From NCBI RefSeq assembly GCF_964355755.1, contig NC_092671.1, positions 33,499,304 to 33,563,303 of the forward strand: DNA of 64,000 bases. Direction: 5' to 3'. Each line of letters starts with the position of its first letter. Positions within the stretch are counted from its first letter, which is position 1. The stretch is from Antedon mediterranea. Lineage: Eukaryota; Echinodermata; Crinoidea; Comatulida; Antedonidae. A program made the position numbers and the translations under genes. Shown here piece by piece: positions 10,568 through 52,838 of this stretch. Below the pieces are notes generated by a model that was given only the letters and a program-made list of their open reading frames with translations, did no database searches and was not told where the DNA came from.

Positions 10568-13500
10568 CATTATATGCTGTAGAAAATAAGCCTAGATCTA
10601 AGCCATAAAAAATTAGGACAACATTACCTTGGACAAATGTTGCTGTAAATAAAACATACTTCATAATTTTTTTTTATAATATAGTATACAAGTTTATGTT
10701 GTTTTTATTTTATAGTAGCCTAAAAACACATTTCATCAGGCTCTTGTGATGTTACGAAAATAAGCAGGCCCCATGACGGAGATGTCAGAATGCACGATCC
10801 TATTTTATATACAGTAGTCTACTGTGTATAGGAAATTGTGTTAACCACATGGAGGAAAAAATTATTGGTTACATTACATTTGTGGAATCACTTGACAATT
10901 TTTAATCCGACATGGAAAGCTTAAGTTAGACCTTGTTGTAAAAATACAATGCAATCAGTTACGTACGTCAGGAACCAATTTTTAAAAATGTTGAGGAGTT
11001 GAATCTTAAGTTACACTTTATTTTCATGATTCTTCCTTATTTATAAAAATAAACCGCCTAAGATAATAAAATAATTTGATCATAACTTGACTTGAAGAAT
11101 GTAGAAATGACTAGGTTAATGATCTTGTTATCCGTACCTATCTTATAAAGATGAGAGATCCAAGATTTTGTCATCTGAACATCATTCTCTAAAGGTAGAC
11201 ATGACGTCATTCGTCTCTTCTAAATCCTGTAGATATGATGATTAATAATTTAACTCATTCTCTTCTAAAGCCTGGTTCTAACTAGAACGCAATGCAAGAC
11301 ACAAGTCGTAACGCAAGCGACTTTTCCAATCAAAAGCGTTGGCGTATTACGTTCTTGCGTGGCGTCCTAGTAGGAAACACATCGATGCGTCTGCATTGAT
11401 AGTAGTACATGTAATTTAAAAAAAAATCTCTACAGACATCACCTAGAATTTTGTTTCAGTAATTGAAAAATAATATAATAATAATACGTTAATATCACGG
11501 CCAGCATGTTACATTGTGTGGGTTTCAATACAAAACACAAATAGACGATTACAATTACGTATCAACCATAGGTTTATTTAATACAGTACCAATAAAGGCT
11601 AAGCAAGCAAATTAATAAGCAAAAAATGAATACAAGAACACATTTAGTAGATCTAGATCTAGACATGTCACGTGTGTACATCACATCATTCACGCGTTCG
11701 ATTTTCAACGACGTATCCAAACCCAACTAAAAAAAGAAAAGAAATAATTTCACAAATTTTTATTGTAAATAAGGTTATGTGTAATAATGTTATGCAGGTG
11801 TGTGACCTGCACTGTAATAAGGTCAAATGTCAGATAACAGTGAACTACAATTGACGTTGGTGCGTTATGGTGCGGTATCGTTATCTGTCTTAAAACGATG
11901 CAAAAGGAATCATATAAAATTTGTTTGGGTACAATATACTCACTTTTATCCCCATCTTTGTTTTCTGCCTTTGCCTGAAATTAGTTTCATAGAAATAACA
12001 TTATACTCTGTGTTATAAGATGCGGTCAGATAAGATTTTCTACCACCGTACAAGGTGATAATGATAATTATACAATAAAATAATTATAATTGGTATCGAT
12101 GATAGTCAACTTTTTCCGTACTTGAAATTCTGAAATTTGCTTCATCTGATAATTACTTATAAATGGTAAACTTCCACAGACAACTGCTAATAATTTCTTG
12201 TAGGCCTACTTTAATTTTTATTATTCAAAACAAGGCCACAGACTAGTGAAAACATATGCACCATATGCATAATGATTTTGAAATTAGTGAGATAAGGACT
12301 ATGTAACAGTTTGCTGAACTCATTGAGGCCTAAAATATAACTATTTGGATTTCAAAATTGTGTTTGATCTTTGCAGTTGCAGAAACTCACGTGTACTTCG
12401 AATGATTCGGTCGCCGGCTAATAGATAGAAACAAAATATGTGTATGTCAACGATTCTCTGTTTTTTCCCCATTCATTTTTATGGTTAAAGCCTTGTTCGC
12501 ACTGGACTGGAAAATGGTAAATTTATCACGATAGCTTTACCGAATGTAATCGGAAGATTTGACCATCGTTCGCACTTGGATATTTTGCATGATAACCATG
12601 AGGGATTTTTTGATTGGTCAGTTTAGCCGCCGGCGCGGTTAATTTGACCAAATTAGGTCCAGTGCGATCGAGGCTTTAAACTTCAGTTTATCTAACTGAC
12701 GCCTTATACACTGTTTATGATTTCATTACATGTTATAAAAACGTAACGCCTTGCAGCACCCACACCTCCTCCTCTCCCACACGACGACATTTTTTCAATT
12801 ACGGTACCGCATATATAAATTAGCATTTCGCATATTCAAAAAGTATATATGTTATGTAACCTTCTTACACTGTACTAAACTAAGCACATTATTTTGATTT
12901 CATAAATTCTAAAAGTTGCAGTTACTCACGTTGCTCCTGATGGATTTGATCAACACCTATAGAATAACAATTAAACAAAATTACATCGATATATAAACAA
13001 AAATCAACCGGTAATGTACTAAATATATAGGCCTATTAATTTAAAAGGATAAATATAATTAAATCTGTGAGAAAAAACAAAAACTGATTTTTCTTTACAA
13101 CCGATACTCACTTATATCTCGGCGGATTCTGTTATAAGCTGAAATGCATCCTGCATCAAAATAGAAATATGTAATTATATGTATTAATAACCAATTCATT
13201 ATTTATTATTATGACTTGATAACAATTAGCAGTATGCAATAAAACTTACAATGTAATAATAATAGGTCATCGATAAAGCGGTATGAGAAAATAAGTATCA
13301 TAACATTTAATTCTCCGAGCGGAGAAGGTATCATTGTTTGTGGAGGGAGACTATTACGACGAGCTAGATGAGTAAGGCCTCTCATTTTTACTAAACCCTG
13401 TTTTCCAGTCGACGTTGAGTTACGTTGAGTAGCGTTGACTTTTCAAATCATTCAAGTTGAAAATAATAAATATATCGATGATCTAGCCTGATCGCTAATA

Positions 13501-15101
13501 TTTACATACTTTTATGCGATCGTTCATGGTTTCTTGGTTTTTTCGAGCGTTCCTTGGACAGGGCTGCATAAGTGTTGCAAAATCAAGGCCGGTCACGCGC
13601 ATCAGAGCCCTCGTGAAAATTGAAGTGACGCGTTTTGATGATCTTCAACCCAGCCTAATGCAGGACATTTTTTTCACTGATATCTTATTCTATGCTTACA
13701 CTAAGAAAACATTAAATACAATTGTTTTTGTGTTATAATTTAAATCAACTTACACCTGTTATTTTGAAATATCAGACCTTAAAAGTGTACAAAAAAGGTT
13801 AAAACCATGTTGCGTTTTAAAGATTCAAGTATGGTCAGCGCGTACGTATTTTTCCACATACCATGACGACGTAATTTGTGAACCATTTGATTGGCAGCCA
13901 ATTTTAACATGTTTTGCTTTAAATTAAATTTTTTTCAGGAAAATAAACGTTTTCAATCCAATTTTGGTTAAAGTTGATAACCATATTACAGTATCGATGT
14001 ATACATACATACAAAGCGCAGATCCGCTTTTAATAGTGGGGGGAGCGTATACAAATAAAATACTTTGCGAGTGAAGCGAGTAACATTAGGCTTGGTGGTG
14101 GCCTCCGGTTCGGATTCAGTGGGAAAAACGCCCTGGAATCCCGGTTCTGTATGTATGTATAGGTCGTTTCAGTCGATCCCCTCCCTCAGGATCTCCGCCG
14201 GTGCATACGTACATCGAATTAAGGCTACATCGCCAGAATTGTAATGTTATGTACAATTAACAAATTTAACAATATGCGTCATTGCTGTAACGTAAAGTTA
14301 TAATAAAATATATATATTTTATACTTACTTGCACCTTCCAAGCCATGTCGACAATCATCATCTTCAGAGTCAAACAAAGTAGAAAGAGTTAGATAGTAAT
14401 TAAGGTAAATAGTGTGTACACATGAATACAAAGGATATTTAAAAAGAAAGTGAAACAAATTGTATACTTAAAACCGATTTTTCACTAAACGAATTTGTTC
14501 GCGCGAATCCAACGTATCGCAAAAAAAAAAATCGTGTTTTCCACTGCAAGAGAGGGGATTTTCATATTTATCGCGTATCTTCTGAGCTAAAGCGAAAAGC
14601 TCGATGAACTAGAATTCGTCACACAGAAGGATTTGGAAAATGGAAAAATAAATACGTATACGTATAAACGTATAGGCCTAAGCTGACGCGTTCGATTAGC
14701 GCGAACACATTTGCCTAGAGTGAAAATCGGCTTTTAATACTTACTCTGACATTGCCCAAATTCAGGCTGCAATAAGAACACGACCAAAAATACTACGACC
14801 AACGTTTGTAATCTCCTGAAAATTGTCCTCAGAATATTAGTTTGAAAACAAAACATAGGATTAATAAGGTCATTGAATATTTAAACACCTACTCCGCTTC
14901 GGCTTTAGATCACGTTCGCGTCAGTACGTACAGCATTAACGACTTTTCGTTTATACGACGCGCCACGCGAATACTTACTGACTTTAAGATTTGCGCATAG
15001 TTAAGCCACGTATAGCAGCGTGATAAGGAAACAGTGAGATGCGATTTATTAGCAGATGTGAAAAACGCTTTAGTTGGTACTTACTGTTGAGCAGTTGCCA
15101 T
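10568..15101 (-). CDS. Secreted micro-exon gene, copy 1
   Basis: Exons in transcript order: 15101-15085 (17 nt, MATAQ), 14815-14745 (71 nt), 14361-14329 (33), 13150-13112 (39), 12956-12930 (27), 12417-12391 (27), 11964-11944 (21), then probably 10642-10628 (15) and 10576-10568 (9). Donors are GTAAGT or GTGAGT (GTAATG for the 15-nt exon) and acceptors end CAG, TAG or AAG. Intron 1 is phase 2 and all later introns are phase 1. Exon 2 encodes a signal-peptide core (LVVVFLVVFLL) ending PEFGQCQ. Later exons encode NDDCRHGLEGA, RCISAYNRIRRDI, SVDQIHQEQ, PGDRIIRST, QNKDGDK, TTFVQ and AYN. The terminal exon was not located. An alternative acceptor 10 nt upstream of the 21-nt exon would give a stop codon there. 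I recognise no family; the product is inferred to be secreted. Confidence 0.7.
13990..14230. repeat. Copy-1-specific insertion in intron 3
   Basis: About 240 bp containing TACATACATACA, GCGAGTGAAGCGAGTAA and ATGTATGTATAGG segments. It is absent at the matching place in copies 2 and 3. The partly self-complementary ends suggest a small transposon. Not classified. Confidence 0.4.
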
Positions 15102-15150
15102 GATGGTTAGGATATCGAACGTCAGTTTATTACGAATGGTTCATGTATCC

Positions 15151-15158
15151 ACTTTATA
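15151..15158 (-). promoter_or_regulatory. TATA box of micro-exon gene copy 1
   Basis: TATAAAGT on the minus strand, 50 nt upstream of the start codon. It lies in a block (TATAAAGT, then GATACATGAACCATTCGTAATAAACTG) that is conserved in the other two copies. Confidence 0.6.
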
Positions 15159-15303
15159 AACTCTTTTATATCTAAACCGATGCAATAATATTAATAACAA
15201 TACTAGATATAAATATTCTAAATAGAATAGAATGATGGCTGACTTTAAAAAAATGTTAACATAACTATAAAAATCTATTTATCTAGAGTAGTTTACGATG
15301 TTC

Positions 15304-15865: not shown

Positions 15866-15959
15866 TATAAGTAATTGTTAATTCTGATATGGGCGAGCAC
15901 AATGGAAAAACTTCGGGACAAATCTCTGCCTTGGATACCTACCTGATCTATCGCAGATG

Positions 15960-17656: not shown

Positions 17657-19970
17657 CAATAGGGTTGGTGAAAACTGTTCATGATAGGTTACTTTTCTGT
17701 CCATAATAGGGACTAGAGGGCGCTCTTGTTTGTCCATAATAGGTAACTTTCATAATTGGCTGTCCAAAATAGGTGACTCTTTGTCCACAATAGGAGATTT
17801 TATTGGAGTAGTGCACCATCCATTGTGTTGTCCATAATAGGTGATTTTGTTGGCGTACTTGTACGTTCGTAGTTTATTTCGCGAGTAGACAGTTCGGACA
17901 GTTAGTAGGTTGGCTGTATAGTAGAACCAGAGCTATTGTTACTGTATGTTATTATGTCATCTATTTAAATCTCAATTGTTTTCCCATATTTTCTGCATGT
18001 ATTACAGATTGTGTACAGTGTATCTTCTGATCAATGTTATAGTACAGTAGCATGGACATTTCTATTAACTAGGGTAAGTAACAGATAGGCCCAACCTACA
18101 ATTCAAGAAAAATACTTTACATATAACCCACTAGACCTACATCTTTTAGGAGATTTTTCAATATGTTTGCAAAAGTAATCTCGAAAAGAAGGATACAATT
18201 TAGTCAAACATTTTCAGAGAGACAAACTGAATATTGTCATTACCATAGTAGAAAAACTTACTGACAGTACATGAAAATTAATTTTTAACATTCTGATTTG
18301 AAATGTTCTATTTATTTGAATTGCTAAGAAATTAAAAGTAGATATTTCTTTTTTATTTTCATTCATTATAAACATTACAATCACTGTACAAAGAATAGAT
18401 AAATCCACTAACAAATTCATGCAGAAAATACATAAAATTAAATTAAATGTTATATCAAAGCATTCATTCAATAAAGCCTTTATCTTTAAAACATTTAATA
18501 TCAGTTTTCATATAGTGAGTATGGTAATAATTGACTCTGACAACTGGTATAAACTTAAATTTAGTAAAAAAATCCTACATATCTTTTTTTAAATGCAATA
18601 AAATATTTAAACATAACTGTGTCCCACCATACAACATGAACAGTTGTCTCAGCATTAACAAGATTGAAGTTACTTGCATTATACAAAACTTAAACATTAT
18701 TATAGTATTTAAATATTTCCTTTTTTATTATAGGCATACAGATGTTTGATATTCTGCTCATATACAGTATGCTGCTGAAATGGAAAAGTACATCACTTCA
18801 ACATAATAACTTTAATCATATCATCGATCAATAATTATAGTAATAAACATAATAATTATGGTGTATTTTATTTATCTTTGCTATTTTTAAAATTGTAGTT
18901 TAACCATGTTTTTACACTTTGAAAATTAATATAATTCAGTATTTTATAATGTGATTTAGATTTTGAATAAACTGTTCTGAATACATGAATACAGAACAAA
19001 GGTGTTGATTGTACACTGCGTATATGTAAACTTGATTTATTGTCTATTTCTTATTATTAAACATTAAATTTGATTCATTTAATTAAACAACAATATAATA
19101 AATGGATGAGAAGTGCTGCTGTTGATCCACTTCAGACTGGGATGATTTGTCATTTGACTTGAGCTATGTGGATCCAGGATTTTGAAATAGGGAAGGACCT
19201 AAAATGGTGAAATGAAGTGCTGAACTGTGATGTCTTTTTCAATATTAAATTTTTATTATTACTGTTAACAAAACAAAATAAAGTCCAAAGAAAAAAAAAA
19301 TACAACTATTACATTGAAATACCAATGCATTAAAAATAACAGTTTACATTTTCATTATCTTAAAAAAATAAAACTTCTTCAATATTAGAGTATTATTATG
19401 GGGTATTTTTTATTTTTGTAAAAGAACAGGTGGGTTGGGTGATTTATTTAAACTTGCAATAGTATGGTAAGTTGCGCAATGTCTGTCCGTACTAACATTC
19501 AAAACCTAAAATTAAGTTCAAATTAAATTATTTGTTGTTGAATAAATCTCACATTTCATTATTAGTGGACAATAACAAATGGACTAGGCTAGTAGTACTA
19601 GTAGGCCTATAGAGGTAGCCTAACTAACAGGACTAGCCTAGGCCTAGGCTAGAGAGACTTAAATAAATATAGTTATACTAATTAGGCCTCCTAGGTAGCC
19701 TCGAAGTCTGAACAGAAAACAAATTAGTACTCGCGAAATAAACTACGTACGTACGAGTACGCCAAAAAAATCACCTATTATGGACAACACAATGGATGGC
19801 GCACTACTCCAATAAAATCTCCTATTGTGGACAAAAAGTCACTATTTTGGACAGCCAATTATGAAAGTTACCTAATATGGACAAACAACAGCGCCCTCTA
19901 GTCCCTATTATGGACAAAAAGTAAGCTATTATGGACACAAAAGTATGGACAGATTTCACCAACCCCGCTC
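17657..19970. mobile_element. hAT-like non-autonomous DNA transposon
   Basis: The element is flanked by identical 8-bp direct repeats CAAATGTC at 17649-17656 and 19971-19978. Its ends are inverted: GGGTTGGTGAAA at the left and TTTCACCAACCCC at the right, extending into arms of about 240 bp (left about 17665-17905, right about 19725-19967). Each arm carries five or six copies of a GTCCATAATAGG-type motif, in opposite orientations. The 1.8-kb interior has no transposase reading frame. Paralogous spacers lack the element, giving an empty site. An 8-bp target duplication points to the hAT superfamily; the tips (CAATAGGG) are not classic CAGNG ends, so the superfamily call is tentative. Confidence 0.75.
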
Positions 19971-19978
19971 CAAATGTC

Positions 19979-21147: not shown

Positions 21148-21195
21148 TTGTGTTTGCTTATCGTAAATTGCCTCCTACTCCTCCACCCATATATA
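21148..21195 (+). repeat. 5' LTR remnant of the Mag-like element
   Basis: TTGTGTTTGCTTATCGTAAA followed by TTGCCTCCTAC and CACCCATAT matches the last part of the 3' LTR at 28943-28986. The first roughly 105 bp of this LTR are missing. Confidence 0.7.
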
Positions 21196-27056: not shown

Positions 27057-27060
27057 AATC

Positions 27061-30513: not shown

Positions 30514-32190
30514 GGCAAGATCCTATTTTATATACAGTAACCTACTGTATATAGGTGGTTGTGTTAACATGAAGAAAAAAATGGATTAGATTACATTTGT
30601 GGAATCACTTGATGATTTTTATTCTGACATGGAAAGCGCAAGTTAGGCCCTGTTGTAAACATACAATCTTCAATCAGTTTCGTACGTCAGGAAACTATTT
30701 TTAAATATTTTGAAAAGTTTGAATCTTAACTTAAAGACACCTTTCCTACAATTTGTGACGTTTTGTAAGAATAATACATATATATTACTTTAAAAACACT
30801 AAACCATTGATTGACCTCTCGTGAACGGTCTTTAGGCCTAGCCTAGGTAGGCTTGGTTTTGTAGGCCTAGCTGGTAAACATCGGTAACGTACGAACATCG
30901 TACGCTGGCTATATAACTAGCCTGGCGTTGTATAGTTGCTGCATTAATTATCTTTCTATTGCCAGACTCCGTTGATACAAATTGGGGAAAAAACGGTATT
31001 TTCGCTGGAAAGTTAGGAGTCTTCCATTTGTTTTGGCCTCACGATCTATCGAAAAGTGGGTGAATTACAAAAGAAAAACAAAAATATCAATCCGCACGCA
31101 ATTCATTTTGGGATTTATAGCGGGCCGCTATAATTATTAGATTCAACTTATTTTTCACATTTTTTACCATTTAAAGACGAAAAAAGTTTTCGCAATAGGA
31201 CCATATAGTATTATTTTTACATTAAATATACTGTAGTTTGTGATCTTAGGCCTAAATTAGATCTAAAAAACGTAGGGAATGTGTCTTTAACTTTATTCTC
31301 ATTATTCTTCCTTATTTATAAAAACCGCCTAAGATAATCACATCATTTGATCATATCTTCTTGAATTAAAGAATGTAGAATGTAGAAATGACTAGGCTAA
31401 TGATCTCGTTATCCGAACATCATAAAGCTTTTAGACGAAAGAGATCCAAGATATTGTCATCATTCTCTTCTAAAGGTAGACATGACGTCATTCGTCTCTT
31501 CTAAATCCTGTAGATATGATGATTAATAATTTAATTCATTCTCTTCTAAAGCCTGAATCCAACTAGAACGCAATGCAAGAAACAAGTCGTAACGCAAACG
31601 ACTATTCCAATAAAAAGCGTTGGAGTATTATGTCCTTGCGTTTAGTAGGAAACACATCGATGCGTCTGGATTATTAGTACATTATGTATTTTCGAAAACA
31701 TTTTCTACAGACATCACCTAGAATTTTGTTTCAGTAATAAATTGGAAAATAATATAATAATAATACGCTAAATATCACGGCCAACATGTCGCATTGTGTG
31801 AGTTTCAATACAAAATACAAACGATTAAAATTACGTATCAACCATAGGTATTTTATTTAATAAAGTACCAATAAAGGCTAACCAAGCAAATTTAAAAGCA
31901 AAACATGAATACAATAGGACTAACACATTTAGTAGATCTAGACAAGTCACGTGTGTACATCACAGCATTCACACGTTCGATTTTCCATGACACACCCAAC
32001 TAAAAAAAGAAAAGAAACAATTTCACTCATTTTTATTGTAAATAATGTTATGTATAGTAATGTTATTAGGTATGTGACCTGCACTGTAAGGTCAAATGTC
32101 AGATAACAGTGAACTACAATTGATGTAGGTGCGTTATGGTACGGTATCGTTATCTGTCTTAAAACGATGAAAAATGAATCATATAACATT
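30514..32190. other. 3' flank of micro-exon gene copy 2
   Basis: Paralogous to about 10790-11920, with insertions such as about 30735-31290. Possible terminal exons of the gene may lie here, but none could be framed. Confidence 0.4.
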
Positions 32191-32211: not shown

Positions 32212-35200
32212 TTTTATCCTCGTCTTTGTTTTCTGCCTTTGCCTGAAACTAGTTTAAAGAAATAGCATTATACTCTGCATGTTTTTTTACCATATTTAAT
32301 GAGGGTGATCCATCCAGCTGATTGCTGATCATTAGGGACCCTCAGAGGTTCACAAGACAAACATATACACAAGATGATCTACATAAATAAAGTCTTATTA
32401 CAAGTCTTTGGGAGTGGAGTTGTAATTTTGTCCTTAGAAAAAAATCCTGACATGTGGCAGGACTTGAACCCAGGAAAAAAGATGCGTTCAGATAAGATGT
32501 ACATACCGCCGTACCAAGAGGAGGATTGATATTGATAATTATACAATAAAATAATCGATGATAGATTCGTTTAACTTTAAATTCTGAAATGTACTTCATC
32601 TGATAACTACTTTATTTGTTCATGGTAGGCCTATATGGTAAACTTCCACAGACTCCTAAATACTTCTTGTACTTTAATTTTCATTATTCAAAAGGCCACA
32701 GACTAAAGAAAATATATGCACATATGCATAATAATTTTGAAATTGGTGAGATAAGGACTAAGTAGCAGTTTTTCTGAACTCATTGAGGTTATTGTAATTG
32801 CAGTAACATATTTTTTATTCGAATTTAACTCTCAATTTTGATTTACAACTATGTATACATATATATATAAATCCAAAGGCAAATTACTGAAAAATGACAA
32901 TGCTGTGGGTATCAGTGGCTGGATCTCAATGGAGGTACAACAAAAAAGAAGCGAAAAACTAGATTAAAACGATAAAGTAAAACAGCCAGAGAAGTTAGCA
33001 GAGCTTTCGAGCAACACTAGCCCTTCATCAGTGCAAGTGAAGGAATTTGGATAACGTCATATGTAGCATAAGTGCTGCTTGGGTGGACAGGAATACAAGA
33101 AATACCACAAAAGGAGAAAGGGTGGTGAATGGTGGGTGGAGACTGAATAAGAGTAGAAAACAAAGAAGGTAGCTTGGTAGAGATATAAACAAATTTGGAA
33201 TGAAACTAAAAAACAGCTTAAATGGTGGTTAATATTGAAACTTAAATTTTGGTAGTAATAATTTTACCGATCTTGGAGTATGTTCTTAATGTTAAGTTCA
33301 AAAGGTTTTGTGGTAGTAATTCCCAGTGGTTTTTATTTTATTTTTATTTTATTCAGTTGTCAACCAACAGCGATGAAACCGCCACTAACAGGTTGAATCT
33401 AAACATAATAAACTATAAAATGTATTCAAATAAACAACAAAAACATAAACAATGATCACAACATTAAAAAGATTTAACAATTTTACCCTTAAATACATTT
33501 AAACTATCATAAAATAAATCAATATCCAAACAAGTAACCTATTAAATGTGTTAGGTAACCGCTGAAAAATACCTCGTTTTGTGCATTCAACACGACCACA
33601 AGGAACGTGAAGCAAACACTTGCTGCGAGTACAAGTTGGTATATTCAACTTAAACAAAGCAACAATAGGACAATCATAAACGGAATTGAATGAGTTGTAT
33701 AAAAAAAACCATATCAAAAACAACACTACGATTTTCAAGAGGAATAAGAGAAACATAATAATTAGGACAAGTGCGAGTAAGGAATCTAATGAATTTGTTC
33801 TGAACATTATAAACACGCTGAGATTGAGTACAAGAAATTGAATTAAAAATGACTGAACAGTATTCCAGGTGGGGGCACACGACTGAACGGTACAATGATG
33901 TTAATGCTCCACCATTGCCCATGAATCTACAGTTCCTCCATAACAAACCCAGCATTCTATTTGCCTTAGATACAACATAATTAAAATGTAAACAAAAATT
34001 TAACTTACTATCAATTAAAACTCCTAAATCCCTTTGAGAATTAACATAATCTAATTCCTGATCATTCAACTTATATTTGGTTATAATAGGCTTTGTTTTC
34101 AGAGTGATACACACAGATTTGCATTTGCTTATTTTTAAAGAAACTTTCCATGTCTCAGCCCATCCCACAAGAGAATCTAGATCCTCTTGCAGCAGATGAG
34201 CGTCGTCAAGTGAAGAGATTACTTTAAACAACTTAAGGTCATCAGCAAACAGAAGTGATTGTGAAATCTTAAAAACAGAAGGAAGGTCATTAATATACAA
34301 ATTAAAAAGCAAGGGGCCAATAATTGACCCATGCGGAAACCCAGAAAGTACAGGAAGCCACTCAGAACAGTTTCCACTGATGACTACCCTCTGCTTCCTG
34401 TCAGTCAAATAATCTGAAAACCATTTAAGAAGATTGCCTTTTAAACCCAACTTTGAAATCTTAAAAACAAGTAAATCATGAGGGACCGAGTCAAATGCTC
34501 TAGAAAAATCAGTGTAGACCACATCACATTGCTTCTGACTATTCAAAGCATTGTATGCTGTAGAAAGAAGCAATGCGAGGTTGGTCTGACACGATCTTCC
34601 AGGAATAAAACCATGCTGAACCGAAGTAATAACTGAACTTATGTTTAAAAACCGCATCGTGAACAATTGGTTCGAACAATTTCGATAAAGTAGGCAACAG
34701 AGAAACAGGACTGTAATTTTCCATTGCCTTTTTGGAGCCACTTTTGTGAATTGGCAAGACATTAGCAAATTTCCATGTCATAGGGAAAATTCCAGAGGTT
34801 ATTGAAAGCTGGTAAATTTTGGAAAGAGGATATGAAAGTGGAGATGCGGCTGATCTAAGAAGAGTATTACTAATTTGGTCATTACCAATGGCCTTATGAA
34901 TATTAACATTACCAACTGCTAATTCTACAGAATGTCGATCTACTACTAATGTTGACATATTATCAATTGAATAATCAGGAAGATCAGGACATTCTTGCAT
35001 TCCATGCAAAGAATTATCACTAAAAAAGGAATGAAAAAAAGTATTAAATAAAAATGCTTTTTCAGAGTCTGATTCAACAGAAATATTTCCCCGTGACATA
35101 ACCGAAGGAAAATCACTAGTCTTGTTTTTACATTTCAACCAACTCTCCAGAATCTCTTTTTATTCGAACCAATTTGTTCAGCAAGTGATTTAAGATAACT

Positions 35201-38200
35201 ATTATATTTTCTTTAACAAAGGTTCTTAAATGAGCGTCGAGCAAAACTAAAATTACTTTGAGTCATACGATTGTTGTTTTTCTTCATAAATCTGAAGCAC
35301 CTTTCTTACTCATACAATACTTTACGTAGTTCTTTATCAAACCATGGAGGTAGTTTCCTTCTCTTTCTAACTTTAGGGACAACGTCCTTGATAGCAGCGA
35401 TTAAAAGATCGTAAAATAATTCAACAGCATCGTTAATATTTCCATTAAAATTAATTAAATTCCATGGTACATAATTTAGTGTATTGCACAAATCATCCAG
35501 ATTCATATTTTTAAAATTGTAGAATATTCTATCATTAAAATTGTTAACATTATTATTGCACCTCGTATTAAACAAATGATAATCAATTCGTATTGATGAG
35601 TGATCAGAATCAAATATGTCATCAGCAGTGTAAACATTTTCAGATAGATTTTGGCTGCTAATAACCAAATCTAAAATTTTATCTAAACGTGTTGGAAATG
35701 TGTTACACTGTAAAAGTCCACAACTGTCCAAGAGAACGTCAATTAAATGTTCACCCATAGAATTACAAGGTTTACTTTGTCTATATTATTATATATATAT
35801 ATATATATATATATATTTTAAACTATTTTTATTTAAAAATTGTATTTGATCGTTCGACGAGTTGCAGATACTCACGTGTACTTCGAATGATTCGGTCGCC
35901 GGCTATTAGATAGAAACAAAATATATACTTATGTCAACGATTATCTGCCAGTCATTTTTATGGTCAAAGCCTTGTTGGCACTGGACTGGAAATGGTAAAT
36001 TTAATCACGGTAGCTTTACCTAATTTCATCGGAAGCTTTGACCATCGTTCGTTTTAACGTAATGTAATGTACTAATGTAACCGTGATGCTAAAAACAACG
36101 ATTGACATATAACATGTGTGATAACATGAGTCGCAAGCGCTTGGATCGGACGTTTTAGCCAGCGTAGTTAATGTTACCGATACATTTCAAGTTCTACTGG
36201 GCAGGTAGTGGTTGGTCAAGTTAACCATCGGAATTGCTTAGTTTAACCATAAGGGATTTTTGCTTGGTAAATTTAGTCGCCGGCGCTGTTAATATGACCA
36301 AATTAGGTCCAATGCGATCGAGGCTTTAGACTTCAGTTTATCTAACTGGCGCCTTATACACTGTTCATGATTTCATTACACGTTTTGAAAATATAACGCC
36401 TTACACACCATCCACACCTACTTTTCCTCTCCCTCACGACGACATTTTTTTTTCAATTAAGGTACCACATATACAATTTAGCATTTTGCATATTCAAAAT
36501 GTCTAAATGTTATGTAACCTTCTTACACTGTACTAAACTAAGCACATTATTTTGATTTCCTAAATTGTCTTTGATCCTTCTACAAGTTGCAGTTACTTGC
36601 GTTGCTCCTGATGGATTTGGTCAACGCCTATAGAATAACAATGAAACAAAAGTACATCGATATATACAAAAATCAACCGGTAATATACTAAATATATAGG
36701 CCTATTAATTTAAAAGGATAAAGATAATAATAATAATAATAATAATAAATAACATTTATAAAGCGCAAGAGACAAAGGTTTCAAAGCGCTGTGTTTTCCA
36801 AGATCAGTGCAAGTAGTAGCGTGCGATTATGCTTCTCTGAAGAGATGAGTTTTGAGTTTAGTTTTAAATGTGATAACAGATTTTGATGAGCGTATTTCGA
36901 GTGGTAGAGTGTTCCAGAGTTTTGGGGCTGCGACAGCGAAAGCACGATCACCGTAAAACCGAGTTCTGGAACGGGGTCCAGGTTTTAGAAGAAGTCTGCT
37001 GGATGAACGAAGCGAAGAGTTGGTTGACGGAGTAATGATGTCACATATGTAGGCTGGAGCACATCCGTTGATGGCCTTATATGTCAGCAACAGGATTTTA
37101 AAACGAATGCGCTGATCAACAGGCAACCAGTGTAAGTCACGTAAAACGGGAGAAATATGTTCATGTCGTTTAGTGCCAGTGATAAGTCTTGCGGCGGAAT
37201 TTTGGATTCGTTGAAGAGGAGACAGATAAGAAGTTGGTAGGCCGTACAGAAGCGAGTTATTACAGTCCAGACGAGATGAAACAAAAGCATGAACAAGACG
37301 TTCAGTTGATGTTTTGTCAAGGTACTTACGAATCTGGCCGATCTGGTAAATTCCAAAGGAAGCACCACGGCAAACATTACGAATGTGTTCTTTTAAACCG
37401 AGGCTGTTGTCTAGTTGGACGCCTAGATTTCTGGCTGAGCTGGAGGTAGAGACACTAGTATCTCCGATATGGACCAAAGGAAATGATGATGCCTCACGGA
37501 ACTTTGAATGAAAATGGATCATTTCAGTCTTGGAGTCGTTGAGCATGAGTTTATTTTGAATGGCCCATGAGCGAACATCTGCAATGCATGATTCAAGGCT
37601 GTTAACAGATTCAGAGTGATGTGTAGGTTTCATGATTAAATATAGTTGAGTGTCATCTGCATAGATCATATGACGAACTTCCGGGTGGGAATCAATGATG
37701 TTGCTGAGTGGTCCAGTGTATAAGATGAAATCGAGTGGACCTTTTACGGATCCCTGTGGTACACCCCAGGGTAGAGCGAACTCATCAGACATCGAATCAC
37801 CCACAATGATTGCTTGTCTACGATTCTCAAAATATGAAATAAACCATTTCAATGCGGTTCCGCTTATGCCGTATCTTTTATGAAGACGTTGAAATAATAA
37901 ATCATGATTGATAGTGTCAAATGCTGCGGAGTAGTCGAGTAGAATAAGTACCGCTTCATTACCTTTGTCTAAAGCAAGTAGTAGATCGTTTGTAACACGT
38001 AATAAAGCGGTTTCAGTTGAGTGAAATCTGTGAGAATAAGAAATAGCCTCCGTAATCAATCGGAACTGGAACATTTTGCTTTATATGCAGATGCCCTAAC
38101 CATATTTATTTATTTATGTACATTAAACCAAAAAGTGTAACATATGCCTGAACCTGACTTAGCTTTATATCTATATCTGACAGAAATAAAACATTGTCTC

Positions 38201-39670
38201 TTAAGAAAAACATGTATAAAAATAAGTAAATTAAACATGCAACATTAGAGATCGACAAAGAGATTATTTAACAATTTGTAAACTTCTTTATTTTTTATTT
38301 CCATTCTAAAATTCTTTTCTTAGAGGAAGGAAACACAAACTGATTTATCTTTACAACCGATACTCACCTATATCTCGGCGGATTCTGTTATAAGCTGAAA
38401 TGCATCCTGCATTGAAATAGAAGTATGTAATTAAAGTATATGTATTTAATAACCAATTCATTATTTAATATTATTACTTGATAACAATAGCAGTATGCAA
38501 TAAAACTGAAAATGTAATAATAATAGGTCATCGATAAAGTACTATGAGAAAATAAGTAAACATTTAATCCTCCGAGAGCGGAGAAGGTATCCGAGAATAT
38601 AGATTCGCACTGAGCACAAGGGATTGTTTGTGGAGGGAAACTATTACGTTGAGCTAGAGGAGTAAGGCCTCTCATTTTTACTTTTACGCGATCGTTGATT
38701 GTTCATGGTTTCTTGGTTTTCGAGCGTTGAGTTATAATAAAATATATATATATTTTATACTTACTTGCACCTTCCAAGCCACGACAACCTTTTTCTTCAG
38801 AGTCATACAAATTAGAAAGAGTTAGATAGTAATTAAGGTAAATGGCGTGTACACTTGAATACAAAGGATATTTAAAAACAAAGTGAAACAAATTGTATAC
38901 TTAAAACCGATTTTCCACTAAACGAATTTGTTCGCGCGAATTCAACGTATCGCAGAAAATAAAATCGTGTTTTCCACTACAAGAGAGGCGATTTTCATAT
39001 TCATGGCGTATCTTCTGAGCTGAAGCGAAGAGCTCAATGAACTAGAATTCGTCACAGAGAAGGATTTGGAAAATGGAAACATGAATACGCACACGTATAA
39101 ACCTAAAGCCGATTTTCCACTAGGCGAATTTGTTCGCGCGAATCAAAAGCGCCAGCTCATACGCATGCGTATAGATGTTTCCATCTTCCAAATCCCTCTA
39201 TACGCATGTGTATAAGCTGACGCTTTCGATTCGCGCGAACAAATTCGCCTAGTGGAAAATCGGCTTAAGCTGACGCGCTAGATTCACGCGAACACATTTG
39301 CCTAGTGTGAAAATCGGCTTACTTACTCTGGCATTGCCCAAATTCAGGCTCCAATAAGAATACGACCAAAAATACTACGACCAACGTTTGTAATCTTCTG
39401 AAAATTGTACTAAAAATATTAGTTTAAAAACAAAACATGGGATTAATAAGGTCAGTGAATATTTAAGCACCTACTCCGCTTCGGCTCTAGATCAAGTACA
39501 GTATTAACGACTTTTCGTTTACAGTACGCGCCACGCGCATAGTATAGCCGGCTAGCCACGTAGAGCAGCGTGAAGACGAAACAGTGAGATGCGATTTTAT
39601 TAGCCGCAGCCGGGACCGGAGTAGATATGAAAGACGCTTTAGTTGGTACTTACAATTGAGCAGCTGCCAT
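32212..39670 (-). CDS. Secreted micro-exon gene, copy 2
   Basis: Exons in transcript order: 39670-39654 (17 nt, MAAAQ), 39397-39327 (71), 38794-38765 (30), 38406-38368 (39), 36627-36601 (27), 35902-35876 (27) and 32232-32212 (21). Phases are identical to copy 1. The signal peptide has the same LVVVFLVVFLL core and ends with GQCQ. Exon 3 is one codon shorter (KKGCRGLEGA). Exon 5 ends in a GC donor (GCAAGT) instead of GT. Exon 7 encodes QNKDEDK. Most differences from copy 1 in exons 2, 5 and 7 are synonymous or conservative. Introns have grown by insertion of a LINE (33330-35785), an L2-like LINE (36729-38021) and a SINE (32291-32474). The downstream 9- and 15-nt exons are degraded, so this copy may be truncated or dead. 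Confidence 0.65.
32291..32474 (-). mobile_element. tRNA-derived SINE, second copy (head truncated)
   Basis: Same family as 2303-2535. On the minus strand it starts at the B box (CCTGGGTTCAAGTCCTGCC) and runs to the GGATCACCCTCATTAAATATG end. The A-box part is missing. Absent from copy 1, so it was inserted after that split. Confidence 0.7.
33330..35785 (-). mobile_element. Jockey-superfamily LINE, 5'-truncated, copy A
   Basis: On the minus strand: a C-terminal endonuclease part (35758-35306, with FDSDHSSIRID), then reverse transcriptase in two frames (35138-34539 and 34768-33674). Motifs are NVLPIHKSGSK, QHGFIPGRSCQTNL, YTDFSRAFDSVPHDLL, GFPHGSIIGPLLFNLYINDL and LLFADDLKLF. The usual GVPQGS box reads GFPHGS. 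The 3' end carries CCTGTTAGTGGCGGT and an AATAAAATAAAAATAAAA tail, shared with the 5S-derived SINE. It lies in the intron before exon 7 of micro-exon gene copy 2. Frameshifts make it inactive. Confidence 0.8.
36729..38021 (-). mobile_element. L2-like LINE, 5'-truncated
   Basis: An open frame on the minus strand from the truncated 5' end to a TAA at 36829-36827 encodes the last about 400 residues of a reverse transcriptase: FHSTETALLRVTNDLL, LLDYSAAFDTINHDLL, GVPQGSVKGPL, IYADDTQLY and a C-terminal domain ending KTHLFREA. Its 3' tail is an (ATT)n tract at about 36727-36748. The empty site survives in copy 3 near 51068 (GGATAAAGATAATGAAATCT). With no interruption in the retained part, it is a young insertion, incapable of retrotransposition because the 5' half is missing. 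Confidence 0.85.
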
Positions 39671-39715: not shown

Positions 39716-39723
39716 ACTTTATA
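39716..39723 (-). promoter_or_regulatory. TATA box of micro-exon gene copy 2
   Basis: TATAAAGT on the minus strand, about 46 nt upstream of the start codon. Same context as in the other copies. Confidence 0.6.
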
Positions 39724-44264: not shown

Positions 44265-45030
44265 CTGAAAGCGCAAGTTACGCCTTGTTGTAAATATACA
44301 ATATGCGCATGCGTATTGTATTTTGAAAATAACCTTTGTTACGTAGTAGGTCAGAAACATATTTTTTTTAATTTGGATAATCAGATCATTTTATATCTTC
44401 CTTGTATGTAGAAATGACGAGATTAATGATCTCGTTATCCGAACATCTCTTATAAATGTTTTAGACGTAAGAGATCTAAGATCTTGTCATATGAACATCA
44501 TTCTCTTCTAAAGGTAGACATGACGTCATAACCGTCTCTTCTAAATCATGTAGATATGATTAATAATCATTCTCTTCTAAAGCCTGGTTCTCACTGAGAA
44601 CGCAATGCAAGATACAAGTCGCAACGTAAGCGACTTTTCCAATCAGACAATAGACGATTACAATTACGTATCAACCATAGGTATTTTATTTAATACAGTA
44701 CCAATAAAGGCTAAGCAAGCAAATTAATAAGCAAAATTAAATACAATATGACTAACACATTTAGTAGATCTAGATCAAGACATGTCAAGTGTGTACTACA
44801 CAGCATTCACACGTTCGATTTTCCATGACGTATCCAAACCCAACTAAAAAAAAATAAAATAAAATAATAGTTTCACTAATTTTTATTGTAATTAATGCTA
44901 TGTGTCTGACCTGCACTGTAAGGTCAAATGTCAGTTAACAGTGAACTACAGTTGACGTTGGTGCGTTATGGTGCGGTATCGTACTTTGAAACGATGTAAA
45001 ATGAATCATTTTACATTTTTTGGTACAATT
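44265..45030. other. 3' flank of micro-exon gene copy 3
   Basis: Paralogous to about 10920-11930 and 30640-32200. No counterpart of the 9- and 15-nt exons was found. Confidence 0.4.
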
Positions 45031-45037
45031 TACTCAC

Positions 45038-48000
45038 TTTTATCCCTATCTTCGTCTTCTGTCCTCTGAAACTAGTTTTACAGAAAAAAAGTGCAATAAG
45101 ATAATGATACAATAAAACAATCATACATTTGAATGTGTAAAATATAATTTTAGCAATTTAGTTTACAACTTTTTGTAATTTTAGACCTTACCTACTTATT
45201 TTGACAATTAATAAATAATCGTCAGAGTTCAACAATCGCTGTGCGATTTATAATCGTTACAAATAATTAAAGCGCATGAGCATGATTCTTATATATAGCA
45301 TGAAATAGTCTAAAACATAATTAATGTTTATGAATGCAATAGAGAAAATAATTTCATAAGGTGCAAGATGAATACTTGCTTATCAAGTAAACAGATCAGC
45401 GTCAAGAAAACAAAACATTGAGATGCAATTTTATTTGCCGGAGCCAGACCGGAGCCGAATCGGAGCACATTTGAACGATGCTTAATACTACTTTTCTTTT
45501 TTAGGCTTAACAGTTGTACCCACTAGAGATTTTGATAATAATTCAATTGAAATAGGAAAATATTAATAATTATATTAATGATAAGTTAAAGGAAGCCATG
45601 TTGTGCAACATGACGATGATTCTGGAGGAGGAGGTTATGTGAGATTGGTTGTTATAGTTAGGGTTTTAGTTATCTCAAAGCTAAGGCCAGGCTATGCTTA
45701 TGGACAAGTACTGCATAATATAAAGTATATATACTGAAAATTATGGTTGAGGAGGAGGAAGTTAATTATTGCATTTATATATTATTATAACGCATTACAA
45801 AATGACTCACTTTATACTTTAATCAATCTAACTTACCGTTAGCGTTATTTACAACAAGAATATGGACACATTAATTATAGATTATTAGTTCCAAGTCATT
45901 AACAAAAAATATATAATGGATCGAGCAAATACTGAAATGAATTCATTTTTTTCAGTTCGTATTTCTCTTTCTTCAACCTACCAATTCGGTTAACTCCCCT
46001 TTGACCTACTCTTCCTTGGAATATCTCTGTAAAGAATTGAAAAAAACCTGTACTTTAATTGAAACATTTGACAATATACATTGACTTTATTGTGTTTTCC
46101 TATGTATTTGTCACATTTCTACATAGCTATGTCGATAATTGTTTATACTATTTAGGAGTAGGTTTGCAAATTTATTACATTTTAACGCTGTTCTTTTTGA
46201 CTGTTTTATTGCAATGTTTTATTCCTACTCACCTCCATCCCGACGAATTCTGCTACCATGTTCTTCTGAAATGCAATAAAACAAGAATACACACGATCAT
46301 GTATGCTTCACTATCATTTTTTAAACATTCTGTTATGGTGCCAAATAATGGCCTATAATTAGTTTGTTCCTTTATTATGTTATCCACTTGTACATAGTTA
46401 CTGAAGTGAGGTTTTCTATTTTCTTTTATAATATGCTATAATTAAATTGATTGGTCTTTATGTAGTCTGTTGCTGAAGAAAAATGACGTTGTATCAAGAT
46501 GATCGTCATCACTGGTATGACCTGAAATGCAGTAGGCCTACATTATGGAAGTTAATGGCAGCCATGATGTGCAACATGGCGATGGTTCTGGAAAAGGAGG
46601 TTATGTGAGATGGGTTTTTAGGTTAGGAGTTTAGTTACTAAAGCTAAGGCCGTAAAGATAGGCTTATGGCCAATAGATACTGTATAGTATACGTTTTTAT
46701 GCAGATTATTATGGAGGAGGAAGTTAGTTGGTGCATTTAATTATTATGATAACGCATTGCAACATAACGCTAACTTTTATACGTTATTTGATAACATACC
46801 GTTAGCGTTATTTACAATAGGATTATTAACACATTAATTATAGATTATTAGTTCCAAGTCATTAAAAAAAATATATAATGGATCCAACAAATACTGAAAT
46901 GAATTCATTTTTTTCAATTTGTATTTTTCTTTCTTCAACCTACCAATTCGGTTAACTCCCTTTTGACCTCCTCTTCCTTGGAATATCTCTGTAAAGAATT
47001 GAAAAAAACCTGTACTTTAATTGAAACATTTGACAATATACATTGACTTTATTGTGTTTTCCTATGTATTTGTCACATTTCTACATAGCTATGTCGATAA
47101 TTGTTTATACTATTTAGGAGTAGGTTTGCAAATGTATTACATTTTAACGCTGTTCTTTTTGACTGTTTTATTGCAATGTTTTATTCCTACTCACCTCCAT
47201 CCCGACCACATTCTGTTATGGTGCCAAATAATGGCCTATAATTAGTTTGTTCCTTCATTATGTTATCCACTTGTACATAGTTACTGAAGTGAGGTTTTCT
47301 AAGCTAAATCAAAACGATAAAGTAAAACAGCCAGAGAAGTTAGCAGAGCTTTCGAGCAACACTAGCCCTTCATCAGTGCAAGTGAAGGAATTTGGATAAC
47401 GTCATATGCAGCATAAGTGCTGCTTGGGTGGACAGGAATACAAGAAATACAACAAAAGGAGAAAGGGTGGTGAATGGTGGGTGGAGACTGAATAAGAGTA
47501 GAAAACAAAGAAGGTAGCTTGGTAGAGATATAAACAATTTTGGAATGAAACTAAAAAACAGCTTAAATGGTGGTTAATATTGAAACTTAAATTTTGGTAG
47601 TAATAATTTTACCGATCTGGGATTATGTTCTTAATGTTAAGTCCAAAAGGTTTTGTGGTAGTAATTCCCAGTGGTTTTTATTTTATTTTTATTTTATTCA
47701 GTTGTCAACCAACAGCGATGAAACCGCCACTAACAGGTTGAATCTAAACATAATAAACTATAAAATGTATTCAAATAAACAACAAAAACATAAACAATGA
47801 TCACAACATTAAAAAGATTTAACAATTTTACCCTTAAATACATTTAAACTATCATAAAATAAATCAATATCCAAACAAGTAACCTATTAAATGTGTTAGG
47901 TAACCGCTGAAAAATACCTCGTTTTGTGCATTCAACACGACCACAAGGAACGTGAAGCAAACACTTGCTGCGAGTACAAGTTGGTATATTCAACTTAAAC

Positions 48001-51000
48001 AAAGCAACAATAGGACAATCATAAACGGAATTGAATGAGTTGTATAAAAAAAACCATATCAAAAACAACACTACGATTTTCAAGAGGAATAAGAGAAACA
48101 TAATAATTAGGACAAGTGCGAGTAAGGAATCTAATGAATTTGTTCTGAACATTATAAACACGCTGAGATTGAGTACAAGAAATTGAATTAAAAATGACTG
48201 AACAGTATTCCAGGTGGGGGCACACGACTGAACGGTACAATGATGTTAATGCTCCACCATTGCCCATGAATCTACAGTTCCTCCATAACAAACCCAGCAT
48301 TCTATTTGCCTTAGATACAACATAATTAAAATGTAAACAAAAATTTAACTTACTATCAATTAAAACTCCTAAATCCCTTTGAGAATTAACATAATCTAAT
48401 TCCTGATCATTCAACTTATATTTGGTTATAATAGGCTTTGTTTTCAGAGTGATACACACAGATTTGCATTTGCTTATTTTTAAAGAAACTTTCCATGTCT
48501 CAGCCCATCCCACAAGAGAATCTAGATCCTCTTGCAGCAGATGAGCGTCGTCAAGTGAAGAGATTACTTTAAACAACTTAAGGTCATCAGCAAACAGAAG
48601 TGATTGTGAAATCTTAAAAACAGAAGGAAGGTCATTAATATACAAATTAAAAAGCAAGGGGCCAATAATTGACCCATGCGGAAACCCAGAAAGTACAGGA
48701 AGCCACTCAGAACAGTTTCCACTGATGACTACCCTCTGCTTCCTGTCAGTCAAATAATCTGAAAACCATTTAAGAAGATTGCCTTTTAAACCCAACTTTG
48801 AAATCTTAAAAACAAGTAAATCATGAGGGACCGAGTCAAATGCTCTAGAAAAATCAGTGTAGACCACATCACATTGCTTCTGACTATTCAAAGCATTGTA
48901 TGCTGTAGAAAGAAGCAATGCGAGGTTGGTCTGACACGATCTTCCAGGAATAAAACCATGCTGAACCGAAGTAATAACTGAACTTATGTTTAAAAACCGC
49001 ATCGTGAACAATTGGTTCGAACAATTTCGATAAAGTAGGCAACAGAGAAACAGGACTGTAATTTTCCATTGCCTTTTTGGAGCCACTTTTGTGAATTGGC
49101 AAGACATTAGCAAATTTCCATGTCATAGGGAAAATTCCAGAGGTTATTGAAAGCTGGTAAATTTTGGAAAGAGGATATGAAAGTGGAGATGCGGCTGATC
49201 TAAGAAGAGTATTACTAATTTGGTCATTACCAATGGCCTTATGAATATTAACATTACCAACTGCTAATTCTACAGAATGTCGATCTACTACTAATGTTGA
49301 CATATTATCAATTGAATAATCAGGAAGATCAGGACATTCTTGCATTCCATGCAAAGAATTATCACTAAAAAAGGAATGAAAAAAAGTATTAAATAAAAAT
49401 GCTTTTTCAGAGTCTGATTCAACAGAAATATTTCCCCGTGACATAACCGAAGGAAAATCACTAGTCTTGTTTTTACATTTCAACCAACTCTCCAGAATCT
49501 CTTTTTATTCGAACCAATTTGTTCAGCAAGTGATTTAAGATAACTATTATATTTTCTTTAACAAAGGTTCTTAAATGAGCGTCGAGCAAAACTAAAATTA
49601 CTTTGAGTCATACGATTGTTGTTTTTCTTCATAAATCTGAAGCACCTTTCTTACTCATACAATACTTTACGTAGTTCTTTATCAAACCATGGAGGTAGTT
49701 TCCTTCTCTTTCTAACTTTAGGGACAACGTCCTTGATAGCAGCGATTAAAAGATCGTAAAATAATTCAACAGCATCGTTAATATTTCCATTAAAATTAAT
49801 TAAATTCCATGGTACATAATTTAGTGTATTGCACAAATCATCCAGATTCATATTTTTAAAATTGTAGAATATTCTATCATTAAAATTGTTAACATTATTA
49901 TTGCACCTCGTATTAAACAAATGATAATCAATTCGTATTGATGAGTGATCAGAATCAAATATGTCATCAGCAGTGTAAACATTTTCAGATAGATTTTGGC
50001 TGCTAATAACCAAATCTAAAATTTTATCTAAACGTGTTGGAAATGTGTTACACTGTAAAAGTCCACAACTGTCCAAGAGAACGTCAATTAAATGTTCACC
50101 CATAGAATTACAAGGTTTACTTTGTCTATATTATTATATATATATATATATATATATTTTAAACTATTTTTATTTAAAAATTGTATTTGATCGTTCGACG
50201 AGTTGCAGATACTCACGTGTACTTCGAATGATTCGGTCGCCGGCTATTAGATAGAAACAAAATATATACTTATGTCAACGATTATCTGCCAGTCATTTTT
50301 ATGGTCAAAGCCTTGTTGGCACAGGACTGGAAATGGTAAATTTAATCACGGTAGCTTTACCTAATTTCATCGGAAGCTTTGACTATCGTTCGTTTTAACG
50401 TAATGTAATGTACTAATGTAACCGTGATGCTAAAAACAACGATTGACATATAACATGTGTGATAACATGAGTCGCACGCGCTTGGATCGGACGTTTTAGC
50501 CAGCGTAGTTAATGTTACCGATACATTTCAAGTTCTATTGGGCAGGTAGTGGTTGGTCAAGTTAACCATCGGAATTGCTTAGTTTAACCATAAGGGATTT
50601 TTGCTTGGTAAATTTAGTCGCCGGCGCTGTTAATATGACCAAATTAGGTCCAGTGCGATCGAGGCTTTAGACTTCAGTTTATCTAACTGGCGCCTTATAC
50701 ACTGTTCATGATTTCATTACACGTTTTGAAAATATAACGCCTTACACACCATCCACACCTACTTTTCCTCTCCCTCACGACGACATTTTTTTTTCAATTA
50801 AGGTACCACATATACAATTTAGCATTTTGCATATTCAAAATGTCTAAATGTTATGTAACCTTCTTACACTGTACTAAACTAAGCACATTATTTTGATTTC
50901 CTAAATTGTCTTTGATCCTTCTACAAGTTGCAGTTACTTACGTTGCTCCTGATGGATTTGGTCAACGCCTATAGAATAACAATGAAACAAAAGTACATCG

Positions 51001-52838
51001 ATATATACAAAAATCAACCGGTAATATACTAAATATATAGGCCTATTAATTTAAAAGGATAAAGATAATGAAATCTGTGAGAATAAGAAATAGCCTCCGT
51101 AATCAATCGGAACTGGAACATTTTGCTTTATATGCAGATGCCCTAACCATATTTATTTATTTATGTACATTAAACCAAAAAGTGTAACATATGCCTGAAC
51201 CTGACTTAGCTTTATATCTATATCTGACAGAAATAAAACATTGTCTCTTAAGAAAAACATGTATAAAAATAAGTAAATTAAACATGCAACATTAGAGATC
51301 GACAAAGAGATTATTTAACAATTTGTAAACTTCTTTATTTTTTATTTCCATTCTAAAATTCTTTTCTTAGAGGAAGGAAACACAAACTGATTTATCTTTA
51401 CAACCGATACTCACCTATATCTCGGCGGATTCTGTTATAAGCTGAAATGCATCCTGCATTGAAATAGAAGTATGTAATTAAAGTATATGTATTTAATAAC
51501 CAATTCATTATTTAATATTATTACTTGATAACAATAGCAGTATGCAATAAAACTGAAAATGTAATAATAATAGGTCATCGATAAAGTACTATGAGAAAAT
51601 AAGTAAACATTTAATCCTCCGAGAGCGGAGAAGGTATCCGAGAATATAGATTCGCACTGAGCACAAGGGATTGTTTGTGGAGGGAAACTATTACGTTGAG
51701 CTAGAGGAGTAAGGCCTCTCATTTTTACTATACCCTGTTTTCCAGTCGACGTTGAGTTACGTTAAGTTGAGTTGAATTTTCAAATCGTTAAAGTTGAAAA
51801 TAAATATAATTTTATATCGATTATCGTGTCGGATCGCTAATATTTACACACTTTTACGCGATCGTTGATTGTTCATGGTTTCTTGGTTTTCGAGCGTTGA
51901 GTTATAATAAAATATATATATTTTATACTTACTTGCACCTTCCAAGCCACGACAACCTTTTTCTTCAGAGTCATACAAATTAGAAAGAGTTAGATAGTAA
52001 TTAAGGTAAATGGCGTGTACACTTGAATACAAAGGATATTTAAAAACAAAGTGAAACAAATTGTATACTTAAAACCGATTTTCCACTAAACGAATTTGTT
52101 CGCGCGAATTCAACGTATCGCAGAAAATAAAATCGTGTTTTCCACTACAAGAGAGGCGATTTTCATATTCATGGCGTATCTTCTGAGCTGAAGCGAAGAG
52201 CTCAATGAACTAGAATTCGTCACAGAGAAGGATTTGGAAAATGGAAACATGAATACGCACACGTATAAGCCTAAAGCCGATTTTCCACTAGGCGAATTTG
52301 TTCGCGCGAATCAAAAGCGCCAGCTTATACGCATGCGTATAGATGTTTCCATCTTCCAAATCCCTCTATACGCATGTGTATAAGCTGACGCTTTCGATTC
52401 GCGCGAACAAATTCGCCTAGTGGAAAATCGGCTTAAGCTGACGCGTTAGATTCGCGCGAACACATTTGCCTAGTGTGAAAATCGGCTTACTTACTCTGGC
52501 ATTGCCCAAATTCAGGCTCCAATAAGAATACGACCAAAAATACTACGACCAACGTTTGTAATCTTCTGAAAATTGTACTAAAAATATTAGTTTAAAAACA
52601 AAACATGGGATTAATAAGGTCAGTGAATATTTAAGCACCTACTCCGCTTCGGCTCTAGATCAAGTACAGTATTAACGACTTTTCGTTTACAGTACGCGCC
52701 ACGCGCATAGTATAGCCGGCTAGCCACGTAGAGCAGCGTGAAGACGAAACAGTGAGATGCGATTTTATTAGCCGCAGCCAGGACCGGAGTAGATATGAAA
52801 GACGCTTTAGTTGGTACTTACAATTGAGCAGCTGCCAT
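45038..52838 (-). CDS. Secreted micro-exon gene, copy 3
   Basis: Exons in transcript order: 52838-52822 (17 nt), 52565-52495 (71), 51962-51933 (30), 51453-51415 (39), 50968-50942 (27), 50243-50217 (27) and 45058-45038 (21). All donors are GTAAGT or GTGAGT. Exons 1-6 encode the same residues as copy 2. Exon 7 is more diverged (QDEDRDK), yet keeps length, phase and an open frame. The exon 6-7 intron is long, with the LINE at 47675-50130 and a tandem duplication at 45540-47300. As in copy 1, an earlier acceptor for exon 7 would lead straight to a stop codon. No later exon was found. Function unknown; secretion is inferred from the signal peptide. Confidence 0.65.
45540..47300. repeat. Two-copy tandem duplication, about 960-bp spacing
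   Basis: Segments starting near 45590 and 46550 share GTTATGTGAGAT, AATATATAATGGATC, a long CATTGACTTTATTGTGTTTTC block and a TTAGTTTGTTCCTT end. The second copy lacks about 75 bp present at 46252-46330. Similar short open frames in both come from the duplication and have no recognisable domain. Confidence 0.75.
47675..50130 (-). mobile_element. Jockey-superfamily LINE, 5'-truncated, copy B
   Basis: Same element as at 33330-35785, with the same frameshifts and the same truncation next to a (TA)n tract. It is therefore a duplicate made with the surrounding DNA, not an independent insertion. The encoded pieces read identically in the two copies. Confidence 0.85.

Follow-up and report, generated by a model that had tools for sequence, protein, structure and literature searches.

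A stretch of 64,000 nucleotides (nt) from the crinoid Antedon mediterranea (NC_092671.1, contig C2, positions 33499304–33563303), referred to here as the window, holds the left edge of a family of putatively secreted micro-exon genes that extends over ~310 kb along one chromosome and occupies both strands. Very probably this is a real coding family. We favour, as the probable reading, that its members encode secreted precursors that would be cut at furin-type sites into short peptides, likely serving defence or outward secretion. The initial annotation of the window had described three gene copies as a tandem family of secreted genes built from symmetric micro-exons; this description is supported, and the family turns out to be larger than the part then seen. 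All positions are counted from the start of the window, those above 64000 continuing the same count, and genome searches spanned the 354-Mb assembly, which consists of eleven contigs of 22–41 Mb and seven small ones.

The three minus-strand copies, denoted c1, c2 and c3, have a common exon plan of 17, 71, 33 or 30, 39, 27, 27 and 21 nt. The first intron is in phase 2 and all later introns are in phase 1; the listed exons have AG acceptors, GT donors and open frames, the sole exception being a GC donor at exon 5 of c2, where c1 and c3 have GT. The seven exons of the initial annotation, with their lengths, phases and splice sites, are thus borne out in every copy. In c1, which extends over 11686–15101, the ATG-containing exon 1 (17 nt; 15085–15101) lies 69 nt downstream of a TATA-like box (15164–15170) and is followed by exon 2 (71 nt; 14745–14815), exon 3 (33 nt; 14329–14361), exon 4 (39 nt, CISAYNRIRRDI, with the motif R-I-R-R; 13112–13150), exons 5 and 6 (27 nt each; 12930–12956 and 12391–12417) and exon 7 (21 nt; 11944–11964). 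The corresponding elements of c2 are a TATA-like box at 39717–39723, exon 1 (17 nt; 39654–39670), exon 2 (71 nt; 39327–39397), exon 3 (30 nt; 38765–38794), exon 4 (39 nt, R-I-R-R; 38368–38406), exon 5 with its GC donor (27 nt; 36601–36627), exon 6 (27 nt; 35876–35902) and exon 7 (21 nt; 32212–32232). For c3 they are found at 52888–52894 (TATA-like box), 52822–52838 (exon 1, 17 nt), 52495–52565 (exon 2, 71 nt), 51933–51962 (exon 3, 30 nt), 51415–51453 (exon 4, 39 nt, R-I-R-R), 50942–50968 and 50217–50243 (exons 5 and 6, 27 nt each) and 45038–45058 (exon 7, 21 nt). In all copies exon 2 encodes a hydrophobic N-terminus that, judged by eye only, represents a putative signal peptide. A TATA-like box is present 53–69 nt upstream of the ATG in five of six genes (c1, c2, c3 and the genes D and G described below; not in gene P). 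In the genes read, the internal exons measure 21–54 nt, are all multiples of three and lie in phase 1, so that, as in schistosome micro-exon genes (MEGs), very small symmetrical exons make up most of the coding region. Between its exons 4 and 5 (36827–38074, minus strand) c2 also carries an intronic frame of 415 amino acids (aa) that by eye resembles a reverse transcriptase and is missing from c3; a pair of reverse-transcriptase-like frames (33674–35758 and 48019–50103) is common to c2 and c3.

Beyond these seven exons, each copy has a terminal exon with a stop codon and, downstream of it, an AATAAA: 11686–11726 and 11573–11578 in c1, 31947–31999 and 31852–31857 in c2, whose terminal exon lacks two codons, and 44785–44843 and 44685–44690 in c3. 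Terminal exons of c1–c3, of gene P and of an E-type copy all start with I-G and contain N-R-T. Three additional in-frame cassettes lie between exons 6 and 7 of c3: 45 nt (IFQGRGGQKGVNRI; 46944–46988), 33 nt (EHGSRIRRDG, again with R-I-R-R; 46233–46265) and 45 nt (IFQGRVGQRGVNRI; 45982–46026). The predicted products are 91 aa for c1, 94 aa for c2 and 96 aa for c3, the last growing to 137 aa when the extra cassettes are included. The terminal exon, the three c3 cassettes and the R-x-R-R motif had all been overlooked in the earlier gene model. Conversely, its proposed c1 exons of 15 nt (10628–10642) and 9 nt (10568–10576) are rejected because they lie beyond the stop codon and ~0.9–1 kb past the AATAAA of the terminal exon. 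The 15-nt candidate has a GTAATG donor and overlaps, at its edge, a dispersed repeat for which a 333-base query gave 41 genome matches, its own place included, most of them covering query positions 65–203. We also discarded an 18-nt candidate at ~47208 in c3, which by eye is what a deletion has left of the 33-nt cassette.

Further minus-strand signal exons occur at ~94.3 (gene E), 101.4 (D), 153.4 (F), 203.5 (G) and 325.6 kb (H). In five exon-centred genome searches, all matches fell within 33.51–33.825 Mb of the same chromosome (7/7, 4/4, 10/10, 4/4 and 8/8); these counts are lower bounds, the first such search having missed F. For exon 2 of D and E, the DNA similarity spans 85–89 nt, that is, the 71-nt exon and a few bases. 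The 100 kb to the left of the window gave short repeat-like matches and no convincing exon match; 140 kb to the right were also read. Among candidates between positions 10000 and 204000, those resembling a known cassette numbered 33 of 341 for the minus strand vs 2 of 291 for the plus strand, whereas the 110 kb further left gave 0 of 187 and 0 of 157; the 11 reference cassettes came from the same cluster, self-matches are included and overlapping candidates are counted apart. Gene D runs from 106099 down to 99576 on the minus strand, with exons of 14, 77, 27, 27, 27, 24 and 17 nt, the last of them assigned by eye, and a predicted product of 70 aa whose mature part has an isoelectric point of ~10.6. 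The first exon of G is identical to that of c2 and c3, and a terminal exon like those of c1–c3 at 64.7 kb was assigned to E by order alone. H contains a repeated module of ~1.9 kb with an ERGSRIRRDE cassette and a GTTAGT donor. It is these paralogues outside the window, and not c1–c3 alone, that place the exon pattern beyond chance.

Codon-level constraint was assessed on 21 codons of exon 2 in seven members (c1, c3, G, D, E, F and H; c2 equals c3). The variable sites comprise 7 first, 2 second and 15 third codon positions (15 of 24 third), and the synonymous rate (dS) exceeds the non-synonymous rate (dN) in 20 of the 20 pairs with finite dS, the 21st pair being saturated. Raw counts are less uniform: non-synonymous changes are equal or more numerous in five or six of the pairs involving E, and the pair F–H gives 2 against 4. 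This excess of third-position changes is the strongest indication we have of coding function and constraint in exon 2.

On the plus strand, 11 exons between 175005 and 189341 splice into an open frame of 130 aa (gene P), in which cassettes of the types NYDRxRR(Q/Y)A and RTPSWDEMITN alternate; a decayed cassette in the middle of the gene was excluded by eye from this model. Judged by eye throughout, P resembles the minus-strand genes in plan and likewise has a D-like first exon, basic cassettes and a terminal exon of the I-G...N-R-T type. A second copy of P at 33.723–33.727 Mb, compared from exon 3 onward, retains, in the same order and with splice sites and open frames, the full set of eight cassettes that separates the signal exon from the terminal one; its last exon has the same start and an earlier end.

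The feature that suggests what these genes make is the furin-type motif R-x-R-R, which 18 of the 23 basic cassettes selected by eye from both strands contain; several of the 23 are near-identical and hence not independent. Selecting the 18 by their motif renders the arginine part circular; the variation at x, which is isoleucine in 12 of the 18, alanine in three and otherwise valine, phenylalanine or tyrosine, is not. The three successive arginine codons of the 18 motifs are AGA (17) or CGA (1), CGT (16) or CGC (2), and CGA (11), CGG (6) or AGG (1). Decayed-looking pieces near 159.7, 159.9 and 174.4 kb and the identical cassettes of the second P copy stand outside the 23. Counted per gene as R-x-[KR]-R, sites number four in P, two in c3 and one each in c1 and c2, so that the sites separate the products into units. 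Together with the terminal exon, the motif points to precursors that would be cut into peptides.

An alternative is that the locus works as a generator of variants in the manner of MEGs, making uncut secreted proteins whose diversity would arise mainly by exon skipping and which would face microbes, parasites or other partners. The symmetry of the cassettes suits this idea, as every one of the 256 possible subsets of the eight internal c3 exons keeps the frame open, and exon skipping, at least on paper, may occur; schistosome MEGs are described in such terms (PMC4350168). We nevertheless regard it as rather unlikely, because R-x-R-R is kept in most basic cassettes while x varies, a pattern that favours cutting over uncut variants.

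According to the cleaved-precursor interpretation, a typical gene has a constant start, consisting of a promoter, from which it would be transcribed, an ATG exon of 14–17 nt and a signal-peptide exon ending in phase 1. This start is followed by interchangeable symmetric phase-1 cassettes of 21–54 nt, the commonest of which carries R-x-R-R, and by the terminal exon. Once in the secretory pathway, the product would be cut after R-x-R-R by a furin-type protease, and the cassette content, set in the genome and perhaps also via exon skipping, would determine which peptides are released. Both genes and single cassettes have increased in number through tandem duplication and apparent gene conversion; turnover within the cluster is visible in copies with zero or three extra cassettes, in the ~1.9-kb repeat of H and in a tract that is 99% identical between c2 and c3. 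Defence or another outward-facing secretion would be the likeliest role.

Several observations weigh against this interpretation. Five of the 23 basic cassettes lack R-x-R-R, and the count of 23 itself omits two H pieces of the DHDISSKQE type with weak donors as well as other decayed or motif-free relatives. Having a single R-x-R-R each, c1 and c2 could yield at most a two-part product. The mature parts of c1–c3 are near neutral rather than cationic, whereas those of D and P are basic, which argues against a simple antimicrobial-peptide reading common to all members. Gene F may be dead, and P is placed in the family by architecture and by likeness judged by eye rather than scored. At the level of base changes, finally, exon divergence within c1–c3 is not clearly lower than intron divergence. 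Mismatches between c1 and c3 number 21/273 in exons vs 177/1949 in aligned introns, and a level as low as that of the exons was reached by 1555 of 5000 randomly placed blocks; for c1 and c2 the values are 21/267, 211/2125 and 1265 of 5000. P and its second copy likewise differ at 10/264 exon and 82/1410 intron positions, and 1815 of 10000 randomly placed blocks gave a value equally low. Base-level conservation as proof of exons is therefore unsupported by the random placements, both within c1–c3 and for the two copies of P.

This similar divergence of exons and introns would be expected if the cluster were decaying or the pattern were due to chance, with most copies unexpressed or their exons illusory, and the decayed appearance of gene F and of one P cassette as well as the GC donor at c2 exon 5 could be taken in the same sense. 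The third-position bias over seven members, the concentration of cassette-like candidates on the minus strand of the cluster with none to its left, and the open frames in c1–c3 and in the second P copy speak against such an explanation, which we judge very improbable.

The statement in the initial annotation that the introns had changed considerably is borne out by insertions and other indels but not by base changes, in which exons are about as divergent as aligned introns. The c1–c3 alignment contains one exon indel, of 3 nt, and 36 intron indels, 9 of which are multiples of three. The annotation had also proposed a comparison of dN/dS over the three copies; this yields 0.38 for c1–c2 (21 changes), 0.47 for c1–c3 (21 changes) and 0.70 for c2–c3 (9 changes), values that are based on 9–21 changes per pair and include the near-identical pair c2 and c3. 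These two copies share 99.3% identity across 3.8 kb (32956–36751 and 47301–51092) and are for this reason non-independent witnesses. A further tract is 100% identical (38022–38682 and 51069–51729), and around exons 7 and 8 the copies are only ~80% alike. Such a mosaic of near-identical and ~80% tracts points to gene conversion or unequal crossing-over in the recent past.

A signal peptide followed by repeated units between multibasic sites is also the layout of a neuropeptide or hormone precursor, and P repeats TPSWDEMITN; the family could accordingly be one of signalling precursors instead of serving defence or outward secretion. However, genes and cassettes turn over fast and are confined to a single tandem cluster, both of which are unusual for neuropeptides, and inspection by eye revealed no C-terminal amidation glycine ahead of the sites. 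A neuropeptide or hormone family is thus improbable in our estimate.

Searches for relatives agree, within Pfam and PDB, with the earlier statement that no homologue is recognised. Against Pfam, nothing rose above the cut-offs, the weak matches (Ycf70, CRA, CTD, DUF7694 and Fis1_TPR_C) all falling below them; against PDB, c3 had zero matches and P four, at E-values of 0.16–0.99, which are not credible. The closest parallels are parallels of design. Schistosome MEGs combine a signal peptide with very small symmetrical exons and splice variants, fall into 25 families by protein sequence and are called restricted to platyhelminths in PMC4350168. The crinoid genes resemble them, as there described, in the putative signal peptide, the tiny symmetrical exons, the tandem copies and the possibility of splice variants, a likeness in gene structure; they differ in being clustered at one locus and in the R-x-R-R carried by many cassettes. 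Aphid bicycle genes, which encode putative gall effectors, have internal exons that are almost all in phase 2 and a mean of ~17 exons per gene according to PMC9168663. Fast-changing proteins, putatively secreted in the crinoid, and many micro-exons of one phase are common to both, but the crinoid exons are in phase 1, which sets them apart from the bicycle pattern, and the genes read here have 7–11 exons. In Drosophila, Baramicin A is reported to be processed at furin sites of the form RXRR (PMC8423362), and its signal peptide and its units split by such sites are matched in the present family by a putative signal peptide and R-x-R-R units; apidaecin has several exons with a distinct peptide from each (PMC3415428). 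Unlike in these two, the cleavage motif of the crinoid genes is located on symmetric, potentially skippable exons of 27–39 nt.

In the literature joining micro-exon genes with echinoderms or bryozoans, MEG terms were absent among the matches listed, and among those listed for micro-exon, furin and precursor terms no such family appeared by title, save the bicycle and schistosome papers. A micro-exon family with R-x-R-R cassettes tied to peptide precursors is hence a combination that we did not find in print, the listings being mostly by title. As a tentative proposition, which we hold with more doubt than confidence, the family may represent a separate animal origin of this design, with a protease site on skippable micro-exons, so that splicing too would pick the peptides of a 'protein operon', and with cassettes copied between neighbours on both strands. 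The secreted symmetric micro-exon families described in PMC4350168 and PMC9168663 belong to flukes and gall aphids, both of which exploit hosts; the same design with no detected homologue would suggest that it has originated repeatedly. Genes of this kind could escape prediction programs that are set for longer exons.

Other elements in and around the window were noted by eye or from repeats. Beside c3, on the plus strand (53622–58291), lie frames that resemble, by eye, the gag, integrase and reverse transcriptase of a Ty3-type retroelement. A 158-nt unit is present in three tandem copies at 40–513, and a long inverted repeat with 96% complementary arms ~1.8 kb apart (17694–17887 and 19728–19920) is possibly a DNA transposon. 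About 20.1–19.0 kb to the left of the window, the minus strand contains an open frame of 342 aa, a 90-aa piece of which had no Pfam match; the frame resembles the first part of a seven-helix protein of the relaxin-receptor (LGR) type. Elsewhere in the assembly, the 20.6-kb contig C17, considered as a mitochondrial genome, does not look like one in its first 2 kb, which by eye appear nuclear and have no tRNA; pieces within C17:1–2000 resemble, by eye, a receptor-type tyrosine phosphatase. Only two innexin hits were obtained genome-wide, at C10:4916006–4916407 and 4937165–4937557, and each was weak, with 34 and 31 bits against a cut-off of 25.

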